Assembly (NCBI GenBank): GCA_030428355.1
Contig: JAUIBL010000012.1
Span: 1 to 64,000, forward strand
Reading direction: 5' to 3'
Origin: Alphaproteobacteria bacterium
GTDB taxonomy: Bacteria > Pseudomonadota > Alphaproteobacteria > Rhodobacterales > Rhodobacteraceae
DNA length: 64,000 nucleotides
Below are positions 10,043-15,868 of this stretch, in pieces. Position 1 is the first letter of the stretch. The number at the start of each line of letters is the position of its first letter. The notes below the pieces were generated by a model. It worked only from the letters and a program-made list of their open reading frames with translations. It did not search any database and was not told the origin of the DNA. Position numbers and translations under genes: made by a program.

Positions 10043-11059
10043 TTACATGGCCTTTGGCTGAGCGTCCTCGAGATCCAGCGACGCAAGGCACTCACCCATA
10101 TCGGTGGACCAGAAGCGGTATTGCCCCCGGCCTAATCTTTTGGCGGCATAGAGCGCCACGTCGGCACGAGAGAGATGGGTCACCGGATCGCAACGCGCCG
10201 TTGCGGCAGACACGGCAATGCCGATGCTGGCCCCGATCGTGACGTCCTGTCCATCGATCTGCGCCGGTTCGGAGATGTCACTGATCAAACGGATCGCCAG
10301 CTCCGTCAGGCGCAGGTGGTCGGTCAGACCCGGGCACACGATGACGAATTCGTCCCCGCCTGCGCGGATCAGCAGATCGTCCTGCCGCGTGTGGCTGCGC
10401 AGGATCAGGGCAACCCGTTTGAGAACACTGTCCCCGATGCCATGACCCAGCGTGTCGTTGACCTGTTTGAAGCGGTCGAGATCCATGTGGAGGATCGCGT
10501 ATTCGGTATTTGATTGTCCAAGCCGGGCCAGCGCCGCGTCGAGCGCGCGCCGGTTGTGCAGCCCTGTGAGACCATCGGTCATCGCGTCGGTTTCAGCGGC
10601 GAGCCGCGCCCCGTTCAGCCGCGCGTTGAGACTGAAAGAGGCTGCGATTGCGCTGGATTTGGCCTCTTGCAGGAACAACAGTTCCATCACCAGATCGCCA
10701 GGCGCAAAATCCTGCGCCGTGAGGCCAAAGCGCTGCACCGCATCAACCACGGCGATGCCGAACGACAGGTCGAGGATCAAGCCCTGTGCCTCGTCGTCGA
10801 TCACCAGACCCCGAAATCCGATCTCGGGTTCCTGCCGAAGGCGCAGGCGCAGGACCTCTCCGGTCAGGCGACGCAGGTCCGACATGGAGGATGGTCGGGC
10901 GGGTCGCAGGATTTCGAACACTTCGAGAAACCGGCAACCGCTTGGATCGTTTATGCCAAGCTTCGAGAAGCTTTTGCCGACTTGCCGAATATGACCGGTT
11001 GGCCCGATGCAGACATGGAGCGGACGGATTGCACGCAAGAGGGCAGGTGCGGCGATCAT
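10043..11059 (-). CDS. HNOBA-GGDEF diguanylate cyclase, partner of an H-NOX-like protein
   Basis: A 338-residue cytoplasmic protein. Residues about 10-135 (RPLHVCIGPTGHIRQVG..., FLEVFEILRP, LTAQDFAPGDLVMELLFL) resemble the HNOBA (haem-NO-binding-associated) domain. A helical linker follows, then a GGDEF domain with DGLTGLHNRRAL, GGDEF at 234-238 and an inhibitory RxxD site (RQDD, 225-228), so it should make cyclic di-GMP and be product-inhibited. Its ATG overlaps the H-NOX-like stop by 4 nt, indicating co-translation as a signalling pair. The activating signal is unknown because the partner lacks the haem ligand. Confidence 0.85.
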   Translation of the reverse strand: MIAAPALLRAIRPLHVCIGPTGHIRQVGKSFSKLGINDPSGCRFLEVFEILRPARPSSMSDLRRLTGEVLRLRLRQEPEIGFRGLVIDDEAQGLILDLSFGIAVVDAVQRFGLTAQDFAPGDLVMELLFLQEAKSSAIAASFSLNARLNGARLAAETDAMTDGLTGLHNRRALDAALARLGQSNTEYAILHMDLDRFKQVNDTLGHGIGDSVLKRVALILRSHTRQDDLLIRAGGDEFVIVCPGLTDHLRLTELAIRLISDISEPAQIDGQDVTIGASIGIAVSAATARCDPVTHLSRADVALYAAKRLGRGQYRFWSTDMGECLASLDLEDAQPKAM

Positions 11060-11655
11060 TGGTGATGTGCCCCATGGGCAACCGACAATGAAAACCCGCG
11101 ATCATCGGCAAAGTCGGTTTCGATGACCTGCACCTCGATGATCTCGGCCCCGTTCCGCAGGCCGCGATGGTCAAGCAGGGCAAGCGTTCCGTAGTCATCG
11201 GCCATCGCGCGCAGCAATCCCACCATGATGTGCCCAAACCCTATCGGATTGTCCGCGCATTGGATCGTGAAGCTTTGCGGTATGGTTTCCTGCACAAGGA
11301 TGCTTGGCAGGTCCAGACCAGACACCGCGAGGCGGGTCCGGTCGGGCAAATCGCCAAGGGACTGCAGAAGTTCCGCGAATGTATCGCCGCCGAACCGCAT
11401 CAGACGCCGCACCGAAGCGTGGTTCTGATGAATGATGAGATAGGCCCCCAGATCCTCAAGGATCACGGACCCAGGCCGATCCAGCACCGTGACACATGCC
11501 TCAAGCAACGTGGGGAAATACCCGGCGTCATATTGCAGCATCGCCTCGAACGAGGTGACAGGCAGGTCGGCCTGAGCCACAGCCCGCGTCCAGTGGTCCG
11601 GACCAAAAACATCCGAGACGAAGGCTTCGAGTGTGCGAAAAATGAGACCGTGCAT
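11056..11655 (-). CDS. H-NOX-like sensor protein lacking haem-binding residues
   Basis: A 199-residue protein with the H-NOX (HNOB) start MHGLIFRTLEAFV and overall fold; I chose ATG 11655 because the family begins MxG. By eye alignment to the soluble guanylate cyclase beta subunit H-NOX domain, the proximal haem His105 corresponds to Pro104 (LGDLPDRTRL), and the YxSxR haem-propionate motif corresponds to CxDxP at 133-137. All canonical haem contacts are therefore missing, although His76 and His79 (IIHQNH) lie nearby. It is co-translated with the HNOBA-GGDEF cyclase. It probably controls that cyclase but by a signal other than classic haem-NO binding. Confidence 0.8.
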   Translation of the reverse strand: MHGLIFRTLEAFVSDVFGPDHWTRAVAQADLPVTSFEAMLQYDAGYFPTLLEACVTVLDRPGSVILEDLGAYLIIHQNHASVRRLMRFGGDTFAELLQSLGDLPDRTRLAVSGLDLPSILVQETIPQSFTIQCADNPIGFGHIMVGLLRAMADDYGTLALLDHRGLRNGAEIIEVQVIETDFADDRGFSLSVAHGAHHQ

Positions 11656-11722
11656 GGGATGCGCCTTTTGTTTGAGGCTCACCATCGCAGTCAGGTCTTA
11701 AGAAACGGCAAATTGCGGACGG

Positions 11723-13282
11723 TCAGAAATCCGTCGGCGCGCCGCCTTCGGCTTTGCGGCGTTCGACAAAAGCCAACAGCTCTTCGTGGATGGCTTCATC
11801 CATCGGCGGCGCCTCGAATTCCTCTAGAATGGCCTTGTACATCACATGGGCCCGTTCCGGCGTCCAGATGCTGCCCGCAGCTTCCCAGGCCTCGTAGTTC
11901 TTCCAGTCGGACAGGAAGGGTTGATAGAACGCCGTCGTGTAGCGTTCCTGCGTGTGTTTCGTGCCGAAGAAATGTCCGTTGCTGCCCACTTCGCGGATCG
12001 CCTCGAGTCCCAGACCGTCATCACTCACGTCGCAGATCGCCGGATCCATGTAGCGGATCAACTGCTGGATCACCTCGCAATCCATGACGAATTTCTCGGG
12101 GCTGGCGATCAGCCCGCCTTCGAGCCACCCGGCGGCGTGGTAGACAAGGTTGGTGCCCGACTGGATGGCGGCCCAGAGGCTGTGCTCGGTTTCCCACATC
12201 GCCTGCCCATCCGGCACGTTGGCCGCGCAGACGCCCGAGGATCGCAGCGGCAGACCGTAAAAGCGGGCCATCTGGCCGGTCATTTGCGTGGCGCGGATGT
12301 ATTCCGGTGTACCAAAGGCCGGCGCGCCGGATTTCATATCGACATTCGATGTGAATGTGCCGATGGCGCAGGGCGCACCGGGGTTGATGATCTGGGCCAG
12401 AACAATGGCGCTCAGCCCTTCAGCCAGCGATTGCGCGACAGCCCCCGCCATCGTGACGGGCGCCATCGCCCCGGCAAGGGTGAAGGGTGTGACGATACAC
12501 CCCTGCCCGCGCGCGGCGCAGCGCATCCAGCCGTCCATCATCGGATGGTCATGCTTGAGCGGCGAGGTCGAGTTGATGTTGGTGTACATGCGCGGGCTGG
12601 CGTCGAATTCCTCGTGCGACAGACCACCGGCGATGCGCACCATCTCCATCACGTCCTCGACGCGCTCTTTGCCCAGCGAATAGGCGTGCGCGACCTTGTC
12701 GGTCAGAGTGAGCTTGTCATAGAGCACATCCAGATGCCGAACGCTGGCATGAATGTCGACGGGTTCGACAGGGTAGCCGCCGACGAAGTGGATACAGTTG
12801 AAATACTGCGACAGCTTGAGGAAATTGCGGCACATCTCGCGCGTGCCGGGCACTTTGCGGCCCATTTCCATGTCCCAGTAATTGGGCGGCGAGGAAACAT
12901 TGCCGAAAAGGATATGCCCGTCTCCGACAACGATCTTCCGGTCCACATTGCGCGGGGTGATGGTGAACGAGCGGGGCGCTTTGCCCACCCACTCCATCAC
13001 GAAATCGCGCCCCATGCGCACGTTTTCGCCGTCAACAGTACAGCCAGCGTCCTTGAGAATGCGCACCGCCTCGGGGTTCAGAAATTCGATCCCGATCTCT
13101 TCGAGAATGATCATGGCGGCATCGTGAACACGCGCCACACCTTCCTCGCTGAGAGGCTCTGTCGGGCGGTCGATGTTGATCGGCAGGCTCCAGGGGAGTT
13201 GTTCGATCACTGCCGAGCCGCGGCGCACGGCATGGCCAGACCGCCCTCCGCTCCGGCGTTTGCGTGTCGTGGCCTCGGTCAT
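11723..13282 (-). CDS. MttB-family (non-pyrrolysine) trimethylamine/betaine-type methyltransferase
   Basis: A 519-residue cytoplasmic protein of the MttB superfamily. Recognisable blocks are EEIGIEFLNPEAVRILKDAG, MGRDFVMEWVGKAPRSF, GGYPVEPVDI, TPFTLAGAMAPVTMAGA and GCIVTPF. There is no in-frame stop, so the pyrrolysine (UAG) of archaeal MttB is absent; such homologues include glycine betaine or other quaternary amine methyltransferases that hand the methyl group to a corrinoid protein. No corrinoid protein or MtgA-like partner lies beside it in this window. Substrate is uncertain. Confidence 0.85.
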   Translation of the reverse strand: MTEATTRKRRSGGRSGHAVRRGSAVIEQLPWSLPINIDRPTEPLSEEGVARVHDAAMIILEEIGIEFLNPEAVRILKDAGCTVDGENVRMGRDFVMEWVGKAPRSFTITPRNVDRKIVVGDGHILFGNVSSPPNYWDMEMGRKVPGTREMCRNFLKLSQYFNCIHFVGGYPVEPVDIHASVRHLDVLYDKLTLTDKVAHAYSLGKERVEDVMEMVRIAGGLSHEEFDASPRMYTNINSTSPLKHDHPMMDGWMRCAARGQGCIVTPFTLAGAMAPVTMAGAVAQSLAEGLSAIVLAQIINPGAPCAIGTFTSNVDMKSGAPAFGTPEYIRATQMTGQMARFYGLPLRSSGVCAANVPDGQAMWETEHSLWAAIQSGTNLVYHAAGWLEGGLIASPEKFVMDCEVIQQLIRYMDPAICDVSDDGLGLEAIREVGSNGHFFGTKHTQERYTTAFYQPFLSDWKNYEAWEAAGSIWTPERAHVMYKAILEEFEAPPMDEAIHEELLAFVERRKAEGGAPTDF

Positions 13283-13382
13283 GGCATCCTCCTGCGTTTC
13301 CCGTGTAGCTAGGCATCGCAGAAGTCACTTATCCTGCCGGAACACGACTCATACGGTCGCTTTTGACCTTTTCAAACGGCGA

Positions 13383-14093
13383 TCACACCAGGCCAAGCCA
13401 AGCCGGAAGATGCCCGATGTCGGGCAACACAAGATCCGCAAAAGGCGCAAGATCCGAGGTTGAGGCCATTCCCGTCAGAACGGCAACTGTGCCCATTCCG
13501 GCGGCACGCCCTGCGATGAGGTCATGCGTGCTGTCACCAACCATCAAAGTCCTGCCGGGGTCTATGCCCACGGCAGAGCTGAATGCCAGCAATTGTCCCG
13601 GTCCGGGTTTCGCACCATAGCCACTGTCGGACCCGGCGATGAAATCGAAACACCGCCGCACCCCAGCAGCATCAAGATGGGCAAAAGCGGGCGCTTCGGC
13701 ATCGTTGGTGGCCACACCAAGCCTGATCCCGGCTGCCGACAGCCTTTCCAGCAGTGGAGCCAGCGGAACCGCCTCGACCATCGGAGCCGCAGCGGCTTCT
13801 TCGTTGATCATCGCGAATAATCTGTCCTTCGAAAGGTGTGGACATTCCGGTGCCAACGTCTCGACCAGCTCGTCCGGGGTTCCCGCGATCACAAAACTGT
13901 CGGGCGCAAAGACACCGGCTGCCAGATCGAACCCGATGATACGCCCTAACACACCGGCGCGATGGGGATCATCATCCGCGATGCGCATGAGAAATGTCTT
14001 GGCCCAGGCGTTCCACGTCGCTCCGAAGTCAAACAGCGTGCCGTCCTTGTCGAACAGGATCGCACCGATCTGGCGCGGGTCGATTTGGGTCAT
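13383..14093 (-). CDS. HAD-family phosphatase (phosphoglycolate phosphatase-like)
   Basis: A 236-residue HAD hydrolase. Motif I is ILFDKDGTLFDF with the two catalytic aspartates, motif II is LGVATND (Thr), and motif IV is LMVGDSTHDLIAGRAAG. The cap insertion of about 70 residues is helical (class C1). The ATG at 14093 overlaps the DUF3572 stop as ATGA; an upstream TTG at 14099 is less likely. The substrate is a small phosphate ester; phosphoglycolate is only the nearest family guess. Confidence 0.8.
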   Translation of the reverse strand: MTQIDPRQIGAILFDKDGTLFDFGATWNAWAKTFLMRIADDDPHRAGVLGRIIGFDLAAGVFAPDSFVIAGTPDELVETLAPECPHLSKDRLFAMINEEAAAAPMVEAVPLAPLLERLSAAGIRLGVATNDAEAPAFAHLDAAGVRRCFDFIAGSDSGYGAKPGPGQLLAFSSAVGIDPGRTLMVGDSTHDLIAGRAAGMGTVAVLTGMASTSDLAPFADLVLPDIGHLPAWLGLV

Positions 14094-14374
14094 GTCCAAT
14101 GCACCTGTTCGCCGCCGGGCAGAACGGCCCGTGCCTGCATCAAGCGGTCATAGGGGATGCCTTCGCTGTCACAGAACGCGATCACCCAGGCATCGTCCAT
14201 CATGATGAAATCCAGCACCGAGGCCTGAAACTCGGGCATGCCGATACCGTCGCGGAACGCCGCCTCGTCTGCGCCGGTCGAGCCCATGAAGACCGGCAGC
14301 AGATCATCGTTTCCAGCCAGCCAGACAATGGCCTTGATTGCGAGCTGCTCTGCCCCGTCTCTTGAAACAGACAT
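14090..14374 (-). CDS. DUF3572 family protein
   Basis: A 94-residue cytoplasmic protein beginning MSVSRDGAEQLAIK. The pattern LAIKAIVWLAGNDDLLPVFMGSTG, then FQASVLDFIMMDDAWV and RAVLPGGEQVHW at the end, matches the DUF3572 family, which is common in alphaproteobacteria and has no known function. It overlaps the HAD gene by 4 nt and is divergent from the PleD-like gene 91 nt away. Confidence 0.8.
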   Translation of the reverse strand: MSVSRDGAEQLAIKAIVWLAGNDDLLPVFMGSTGADEAAFRDGIGMPEFQASVLDFIMMDDAWVIAFCDSEGIPYDRLMQARAVLPGGEQVHWT

Positions 14375-14464: not shown

Positions 14465-15868
14465 GTGCCAAGGTCCGTTCTGATCATCGACGCCATCAGC
14501 ACCCGCCGCATTCACCTGCGCGCGCAGCTCGACACGACGGCCTATCCTGTCGATCTGGCCGAAACACAATCCGAAGGTTTGGCAAGGGCCCGCAAAGACC
14601 CACCGGATGTCGTGATCATCGCCGACGACCTGCCGGACCTGCGCCTGCGCCAATTCTGCAAGACACTGCGCAGCCAGAAGCAAACGCAGTTCACAACCGT
14701 GGTTGTGGCCGTGCAAAGCGAAAATCAGTCGGCACGGGTCAGTGCTCTGGTGGATGGGGCACATGATGTCATCGACATGAAATGCGATGCTGTCGACCTC
14801 AAGGCCCGGATGCGCAGTTTCATGCGATCGAGCGATTACCTCAGCGCCATGGACCGACCGGCACATGGACATATCCCGCAGGGCCTATCGGAATCCCGAC
14901 CGGACTTCGCCCCCATAACCACGGCCACTTTCGTCGCGCCAAACCCCGACACACATCTCTTCGGGTCTCTGCGCAAGATGTCAGCAGATGCAGGCATTGA
15001 CGCACGGCACGCAGCCATGCACACGGTGCGCCGCGATCCGGATGCCGAAAGTGACGTCTACATTCTTTTTGAAACCGAGCCAAATGACGGTATCCGCGAT
15101 ACGCTCATTGCGCTCCGAAACCATCCCGTCAGCCGCAGGAGCCGCATCCTGTTTGTCACCGATTGCACGTCTCGAAGCGCGTCGCCACTGGATCTCGGGG
15201 CCGACGATCAGGTTCCGACGGAGATCAGCCCGTCCGAACTGACCCTGAGGATCACGCGATTGGCGCGCGGCAAGCGGGACGCGGATCGCAGAAGCGCGGA
15301 AACACAGGAACTGGCTCAGAAAGCCTATGTGGATGCGTTGACCGGATTGAACAATCGCACCGCGATGGAGGACTATCTGGTGCGGATGGATCGGGCACTT
15401 GCCGACCAGCCAAAGGCCATCGCCGTGATGATTGCCGATCTCGATCACTTCAAAGCCATCAATGACAGTCACGGTCACGCAGCGGGTGATGTGATCCTTG
15501 CGAAAGTCGCACAGACCCTGAAGTCAAAGCTGCGCGATGGCGATTTCATCGCGCGCTATGGTGGCGAGGAATTTCTGATCGTGTTGCCGAATGTCAAACG
15601 CGATCACGCTCGGGACGTCGCCATGCGCCTGCGTGATGCCGTTGCGGACACCCCGATCGCGCTCACATCGGGAACGGTTGTGCGGGCAACGATCAGCATA
15701 GGACTTGCCGTCGCACACAAGTCAGAACGGAAGACGACCAGAGACTTGCAGCGCGCCGCTGACACTGCGCTCTATTCGGCCAAGCGCAGCGGACGCAACC
15801 GGATCGAGCTGGCACAGATGGTCAGTCCTCTGGGGCGACCTCTTGGCGGCTCCCGCGCAGAGTTGTGA
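14465..15868 (+). CDS. PleD-like REC-REC-GGDEF diguanylate cyclase with degenerate receivers
   Basis: A 467-residue protein starting at GTG 14465. Residues 1-120 form a receiver fold, but the position of the PleD phospho-acceptor Asp53 is Ala53 (VVIIADDLP; Asp54 and Asp55 follow). A second receiver-like domain (about 160-265) also lacks an obvious acceptor. The GGDEF domain (285-460) is intact: DALTGLNNR, GGEEF at 365-369 and inhibitory-site RDGD at 356-359. It should make cyclic di-GMP. Control by phosphorylation like Caulobacter PleD is doubtful unless Asp54 substitutes. Confidence 0.88.
   Translation: MPRSVLIIDAISTRRIHLRAQLDTTAYPVDLAETQSEGLARARKDPPDVVIIADDLPDLRLRQFCKTLRSQKQTQFTTVVVAVQSENQSARVSALVDGAHDVIDMKCDAVDLKARMRSFMRSSDYLSAMDRPAHGHIPQGLSESRPDFAPITTATFVAPNPDTHLFGSLRKMSADAGIDARHAAMHTVRRDPDAESDVYILFETEPNDGIRDTLIALRNHPVSRRSRILFVTDCTSRSASPLDLGADDQVPTEISPSELTLRITRLARGKRDADRRSAETQELAQKAYVDALTGLNNRTAMEDYLVRMDRALADQPKAIAVMIADLDHFKAINDSHGHAAGDVILAKVAQTLKSKLRDGDFIARYGGEEFLIVLPNVKRDHARDVAMRLRDAVADTPIALTSGTVVRATISIGLAVAHKSERKTTRDLQRAADTALYSAKRSGRNRIELAQMVSPLGRPLGGSRAEL

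Follow-up and report, generated by a model that had tools for sequence, protein, structure and literature searches.

The window, a 64,000-nucleotide stretch of a Rhodobacteraceae genome, carries a gene for an H-NOX-like protein at positions 11056–11655. The original prediction had placed the gene correctly and given no strand; it lies on the minus strand. The reading frame of this gene, here called hnoX, starts with an ATG at 11655, its stop codon ends at 11056 and the product has 199 aa, while the plus-strand reading of the same bases is broken by a stop. The frame is open up to another ATG at 11685, ten codons upstream, but it is Met1 at 11655 that lines up with the relatives, giving a protein that begins with MHGLIF. 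The expected likeness to H-NOX domains along the protein was found: Pfam HNOB matches residues 2–156 (E = 1.8e-18, 67.4 bits against a cut-off of 25.5), and a phmmer comparison with the PDB aligns residues 1–179 with the Nostoc H-NOX Alr2278 (E = 1.5e-9). The AlphaFold model has a pLDDT of 91.6, its best PDB matches in Foldseek are H-NOX proteins (E = 4.1e-12), and the TM scores against Nostoc H-NOX are 0.79/0.86. A full H-NOX fold is thus predicted with high confidence. The gene is the sole HNOB match in its own genome, which is assembled in 83 contigs and is 87% complete, and a phage collection searched with the protein at 1e-5 returned zero matches.

The stop codon of hnoX and the start codon of the following gene share the bases ATGA (11056–11059, minus strand). 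This 4-bp overlap with an intact cyclase gene, which also occurs in 49 of 68 relatives, bears out the earlier statement that hnoX is in frame and tied to its cyclase. The cyclase gene (10043–11059, minus strand) encodes 338 aa comprising an HNOBA/PAS-like domain, a helix and a GGDEF domain. The GGDEF domain (residues 159–312, 10124–10585, minus strand) is matched by Pfam with E = 1.3e-40 and contains an RxxD five residues before the GGDEF motif. The N-terminal domain (about residues 1–115, 10715–11059, minus strand) was assigned from the model, from Foldseek and from a Pfam HNOBA match at residues 10–77 that stays below the cut-off (E = 0.0018, 18.2 bits against 23.4). The cyclase model (pLDDT 89.5, pTM 0.53) can be aligned with chains of soluble guanylate cyclase (sGC) and with PAS-GGDEF proteins across some 310 columns, at low overall TM. 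The PAS-GGDEF-EAL protein PA0861 ranks first and sGC chains take ranks 2, 5–10 and others, with TM scores of 0.31–0.35 of the query and rmsd values of 14 and more.

Among 71 loci from named genome records, 68 have an orthologous cyclase directly downstream of hnoX; of the remaining three, L067 and L102 are interrupted or truncated and L077 lies at a contig end. The residues G234, G235, D236, E237, R225 and D228 are invariant in 69/69 cyclases, of which one (L036) reads GGDEC; another (L088) is split into two frames. From its GGDEF and RxxD motifs, the partner is predicted to be an active diguanylate cyclase. Canonical H-NOX loci have a cyclase match within 1.5 kb flanks in 2 of 30 cases. A second GGDEF-like protein is encoded in the window about 3.4 kb away (14465–15868, plus strand), with GGEEF and a PleD-like layout as judged by eye.

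Upstream of hnoX lie genes for an MttB-family methyltransferase (Pfam; 11723–13282, minus strand) and a HAD hydrolase, together spanning 11723–14099 on the minus strand. These are frequent neighbours only, with MttB near 36 of 70 loci and the HAD gene matched in 37 of 70, some of these loci being cut short. Between MttB and hnoX we noticed a CtrA-like promoter element, TTTGCCGTTTCTTAA, lying 57 to 43 bases upstream of the hnoX start codon (11698–11712, minus strand), by a site scan, by alignment on TTAA and by reading the sequence. Its right half TTAA is present and its left half is degenerate, giving two mismatches. Of 69 loci, which are related and not independent, 57 have a site of the form TTAA-N7-TTAA with at most two mismatches in the 250 bases upstream; single-base shuffling would give about 15, and a control stretch gave 11 of 65. 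A perfect site was found in 0 of the 69 upstream regions. A TTAA stands 36–62 bases before the start in 53 of 69 loci, and in 81% of these 53 TTAA-aligned regions an A follows 16 bases after the TTAA start. The combination of TTAA and downstream A resembles the CtrA-activated promoters of R. sphaeroides as described in the accessible part of PMC6180460. The D. shibae HNOX is listed among genes subject to the QS/CtrA phosphorelay in the portion of PMC7232146 available to us.

We then examined the positions that hold haem in H-NOX proteins. In the phmmer alignment, Pro104 (codon CCC, 11344–11346, minus strand) sits on Nostoc His105, and C133, D135 and P137 sit on Tyr134, Ser136 and Arg138 (Nostoc numbers counted by hand). 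Residues 133–137 read C-A-D-N-P in place of YxSxR (11245–11259, minus strand; codons TGC GCG GAC AAT CCG), and the family alignment places both sites in the same way. The canonical proteins have His104, Tyr133 and Ser135 in 30/30 cases and Arg137 in 29/30. The predicted replacements of the axial His and of YxSxR are therefore real. The further claim that every canonical haem contact is lost went too far, since Pro117 (Nostoc Pro118) and Gly146 are kept, as they are in 192/192 members of the clade described below and in 30/30 canonical proteins. According to the available text of PMC7108781, the conserved H-NOX proline corresponding to Pro117 distorts the haem.

Such losses might mark a decaying gene on its way out, and interrupted or truncated copies do exist at three other loci, L067 and L102 (both Ascidiaceihabitans) and L150 (genome G271, internal TAA). 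However, the frame in the window is open, the overlap with the cyclase is conserved, 59 clade sequences share 13 invariant columns, and dN/dS of hnoX is 0.06–0.20 against 11 Marivita or near relatives (synonymous changes saturated in one comparison and high in the others). Decay is thus extremely improbable, as the original prediction had supposed, and on the dN/dS values we rejected the pseudogene reading for the window copy. The cyclase gene has a dN/dS of 0.075–0.19 (6 comparisons).

The H-NOX of the window belongs to a large clade. HNOB matches occur in 296 of 394 genomes of its family, and a clade profile built from 59 sequences matches 199 of 244 order-sampled genomes at 1e-6 or better. 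By profile score (1.2e-42 or better) the clade is present in 195 of these 244; four matches score much lower (G294, G685, G257, G696). Every row listed for the order sample, matched or not, is from the family to which the window belongs; another 25 unmatched genomes have no row there, so the result speaks for this one family. In a class sample the profile matches 7 of 289 genomes, three of which carry the clade, the window's genome among them. The other four (G294, G514, G569 and the fragment G664) read as canonical proteins with His and YxSxR; downstream of three of them comes a protein in which kinase motifs and an HNOBA-like N-terminal part can be made out by eye, and downstream of the one in G294 a GGDEF-EAL-like protein. 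A quick-method tree of 131 proteins recovers the clade as one group (SH-aLRT 99) on a stem of 1.42 changes per column.

Several individual genomes deserve mention. The canonical H-NOX of G294 (L002) precedes a protein that can be aligned with the window cyclase from its residue 10, and it adjoins the clade in the 131-protein tree with weak support (70). One canonical haem-type and one Pro104-type protein are found together in each of G123 (L015/L184), G316 (L031/L168) and G230 (L004/L129), so the two types can coexist. An H-NOX-like protein of G017 (L148) falls outside both groups and shows a His and a YxHxR-like motif by eye. Two clade-profile matches each occur in G719, G756, G807 and G818 and are possible duplicates.

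For residue counts we dropped fragments and interrupted copies (L067, L098, L102, L109), the window's own copies (L001, L105) and a duplicate of L002 (L106). Removal of 7 duplicates by their first 180 residues reduced 232 proteins to 225, and subtracting 30 canonical proteins, L107, L108 and L148 left 192 clade members, with no residue used for the choice. The size of the set depends on the filter (183 with a residue filter, otherwise 191 or 192); in the set of 183 the conservation of D68, R87 and D154 is true by construction and was not used. The sample is not random, as 71 loci were found by their likeness to the window and many others come from better-scoring genomes, and the share of His104 given here may thus be off.

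Position 104 is Pro in 139 of the 192 distinct members, His in 20 and another residue in 33, so that 172 have no His; a first alignment of 71 relatives had given 52 Pro, 4 His, 14 other letters and 1 gap. The complete YxSxR is present in 0/192, and 119 members have none of His104, Tyr133, Ser135 and Arg137. In the proposed check on conservation, Pro104 thus prevails and the complete YxSxR is absent throughout; positions 104, 133, 135 and 137 vary widely within the clade. The idea of a haem-free H-NOX family is partly borne out. The clade is large and mostly lacks the His, but 20 members have His104, among them the protein of D. shibae, which is described as a haem-NO sensor (PMC8846402, in the part available); the clade therefore need not be haem-free throughout.

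On the larger tree, from which L148 and L150 were omitted, position 104 changes often: the His group accounts for 14 changes, at least 6 of them forced by starred branches, and 96 of 193 inner branches are open for the state at this position. Together with the 20 His104 members, these frequent changes suggest that some lineages may use haem. In the smaller tree several His104 members stand near the base. Genomes were scored as positive for an NO-forming nitrite reductase if NirK exceeded its cut-off or cytochrome d1 matched below 1e-50, and a partial d1 match (G256) was excluded. Positives were 9 of the 16 genomes with His104 and 19 of the 62 with Pro104 (Fisher p = 0.08, uncorrected for kinship). 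The window's genome, one of the 62, is negative by this rule and has weak matches only. His104 and Pro104 members differ most at position 104 itself (divergence 1.00) and at 135 (0.52), the next value being 0.41; His104 goes with Trp or His at 135, and Pro104 with Gly, Ser or Ala. This pairing may follow kinship, as the independent pairs supported by starred branches (5 and 6) gave no signal of coupling.

What the clade does conserve lies elsewhere. Residues 66–90 (11386–11460, minus strand) contain the near-invariant motifs LEDxG and RRLxRFGG, with E67 found in 187 of the 192 members, D68 in 188, R84 in 190 and R87 in 192; R106 is found in 186. The most conserved stretch is AMADDYGTL at residues 150–158 (11182–11208, minus strand), in which the near-invariant motif MADDYG includes D153 (191 of 192), D154 (187), Y155 (188) and G156 (191). 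These residues are conserved in the clade and not in the canonical set. Both kinds of member have them: D153 occurs in 171 of 172 His104-less and 20 of 20 His104 proteins, and Y155 in 168 of 172 and 20 of 20. Because they are common to proteins with and without His104, they would be better explained by a partner interface than by a substitute haem site. The clade's own motifs thus look, from the alignment, like the mark of a shared function such as cyclase binding, not of haem replacement.

It is conceivable that the protein still binds haem and senses NO, via His2 or Cys133 or without an axial ligand of its own. His2 is the most conserved His of the clade (158 of 172 His104-less members), whereas position 2 is K, Y or L in 32 of 33 canonical proteins, and Cys133 occurs in 80 of 138 Pro104 members (clade set of 191). 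However, His2 is also present in 17 of the 20 His104 members and is thus not tied to the loss, and the complete YxSxR is found in none of the clade. The two alternative ligands that had been proposed do no better, both being less conserved than His2: His76 occurs in 125 of 172 His104-less and in 14 of 20 His104 members, and His79 in just 20 of 192, so neither qualifies as a replacement. Reports from related species point in both directions. The D. shibae sensor mentioned above is a clade member, and biofilm formation of P. denitrificans responds to NO; the authors of that study take its H-NOX to respond to NO even though the His is absent, but they also state that NO stimulates the biofilm in the hnoX mutant too (PMC5588039, in the sections available). 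Taken together, we consider retained haem-NO sensing by the window protein unlikely, and NO probably is not its input.

Two cysteine-based sites were also tried. The protein has only Cys54 and Cys133, and a zinc-cysteine redox site, which takes three Cys plus His or Gln, was rejected for this reason. A Cys54–Cys133 switch was rejected as well, since both residues occur together in 13 of 139 Pro104 members.

Alternatively, the vacated pocket could take up a different ligand, perhaps a small hydrophobic molecule, which would set the conformation of the H-NOX and thereby the activity of the cyclase. The confidently predicted fold, the universal retention of Pro117 and Gly146 in the clade and the purifying selection on hnoX would all agree with a working sensor, and the positions that we take to line the pocket in Nostoc H-NOX are mostly aliphatic in the clade. 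The wide variation at 104, 133, 135 and 137 is unexpected for a shared specific site at the haem edge, however, and makes this reading rather doubtful.

We favor, with a probability of roughly one half, a model in which the hnoX product is a regulatory partner without haem ligands for the co-encoded cyclase, placed behind a CtrA-like promoter element. The H-NOX would dock on the cyclase at its HNOBA/PAS-like domain and helix, in the manner of the H-NOX and PAS domains of sGC, and the docked protein would restrain c-di-GMP synthesis. Its input would no longer be haem-bound NO, with neither haem nor another ligand taking that place, and it may act mainly through its own amount, set by the conserved promoter if CtrA indeed binds there. 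Such a role would be akin to that of the haem-free alpha-subunit H-NOX of animal sGC. Several findings count against this partner model. The fold and Pro117 are kept, and a pocket may thus persist; the D. shibae protein of the same clade is reported to sense NO by haem, though it has His104 (PMC8846402 and PMC7232146, as far as their accessible text goes); and the HNOBA match of the cyclase is below the Pfam cut-off, with low TM scores for the sGC structural matches.

More tentatively, and on the doubtful side of possible, most Rhodobacteraceae may carry an H-NOX that has dropped haem and reports a non-gas signal to the cyclase under CtrA control, with the His104 minority, such as D. shibae, having kept or regained NO sensing. 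If so, there are haem and haem-free versions of one orthologous H-NOX–cyclase pair. The usual annotation and interpretation of H-NOX proteins is that they sense NO. In the bacterial family studied here, however, most have an H-NOX that is unable to hold haem in the known way, and since the D. shibae protein belongs to the His104 minority, it is unsafe to assume its NO response in relatives. Because nature supplies orthologues with His104 and with Pro104 alongside the same cyclase, cyclase control without haem, and what replaces NO, are directly testable. For P. denitrificans and R. sphaeroides, the loss of the axial His has itself already been published (PMC5588039, in the part available); beyond this Paracoccus statement, we found no account of the clade among the open-licence papers listed by our searches.

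The closest known counterpart is the pair Pden_3719/DgcA (Pden_3720) of P. denitrificans, in which, as in the window, the H-NOX gene overlaps the GGDEF gene and the protein has no axial His, a feature it shares with that of R. sphaeroides (PMC5588039, available sections). The window protein is 30–35% identical to those of Paracoccus loci, and the H-NOX of P. denitrificans HAMBI_2443 has Pro at position 104 and the motifs RRLLRFGG and MADDYGSL. According to the same sections of PMC5588039, the hnoX mutant is partly biofilm-deficient and without BapA, and a dgcAB mutant overproduces both. Together with Pro104 in HAMBI_2443, these reported phenotypes suggest that a His-less member acts in vivo, in the direction of cyclase inhibition; a later study states, in its accessible part, that c-di-GMP could not be measured (PMC12582929).

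The D. shibae H-NOX (L138) shares the clade and the adjoining cyclase gene with the window protein and differs from it by His104 and CxWxR. It comes from genome G035, assigned to D. shibae DFL12; the 3,000 bases compared from its third contig match NC_009956.1 at 100% identity. From its gene position and the available text of PMC7232146 we infer that L138 is Dshi_2815, paired with Dgc1. Later papers describe the D. shibae protein as a haem-NO sensor that inhibits Dgc1 (PMC8846402, PMC7232146 and PMC6473078, in the parts available), and R. capsulatus rcc02630 is named as its homologue, both being called NO-sensor proteins (PMC7232146, same part). Nostoc Alr2278 and the canonical H-NOX proteins have the same fold and the same Pro117 and Gly146 positions and differ by His104 and YxSxR. 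The haem-free redox H-NOX of Vibrio cholerae offers a precedent, acting without haem; its zinc site consists of three Cys plus Gln or His, and the relatives discussed there all keep the axial His (PMC7108781, available text). The H-NOX of the animal sGC alpha subunit, like that proposed for the window protein, is haem-free and works with a PAS domain and coiled coil of its cyclase (PMC6839917, accessible part). It is fused to a guanylate cyclase, whereas the window protein is separate and its partner has a GGDEF domain, and Foldseek places the haem-binding beta subunit of sGC above the alpha subunit as a match to the window protein.
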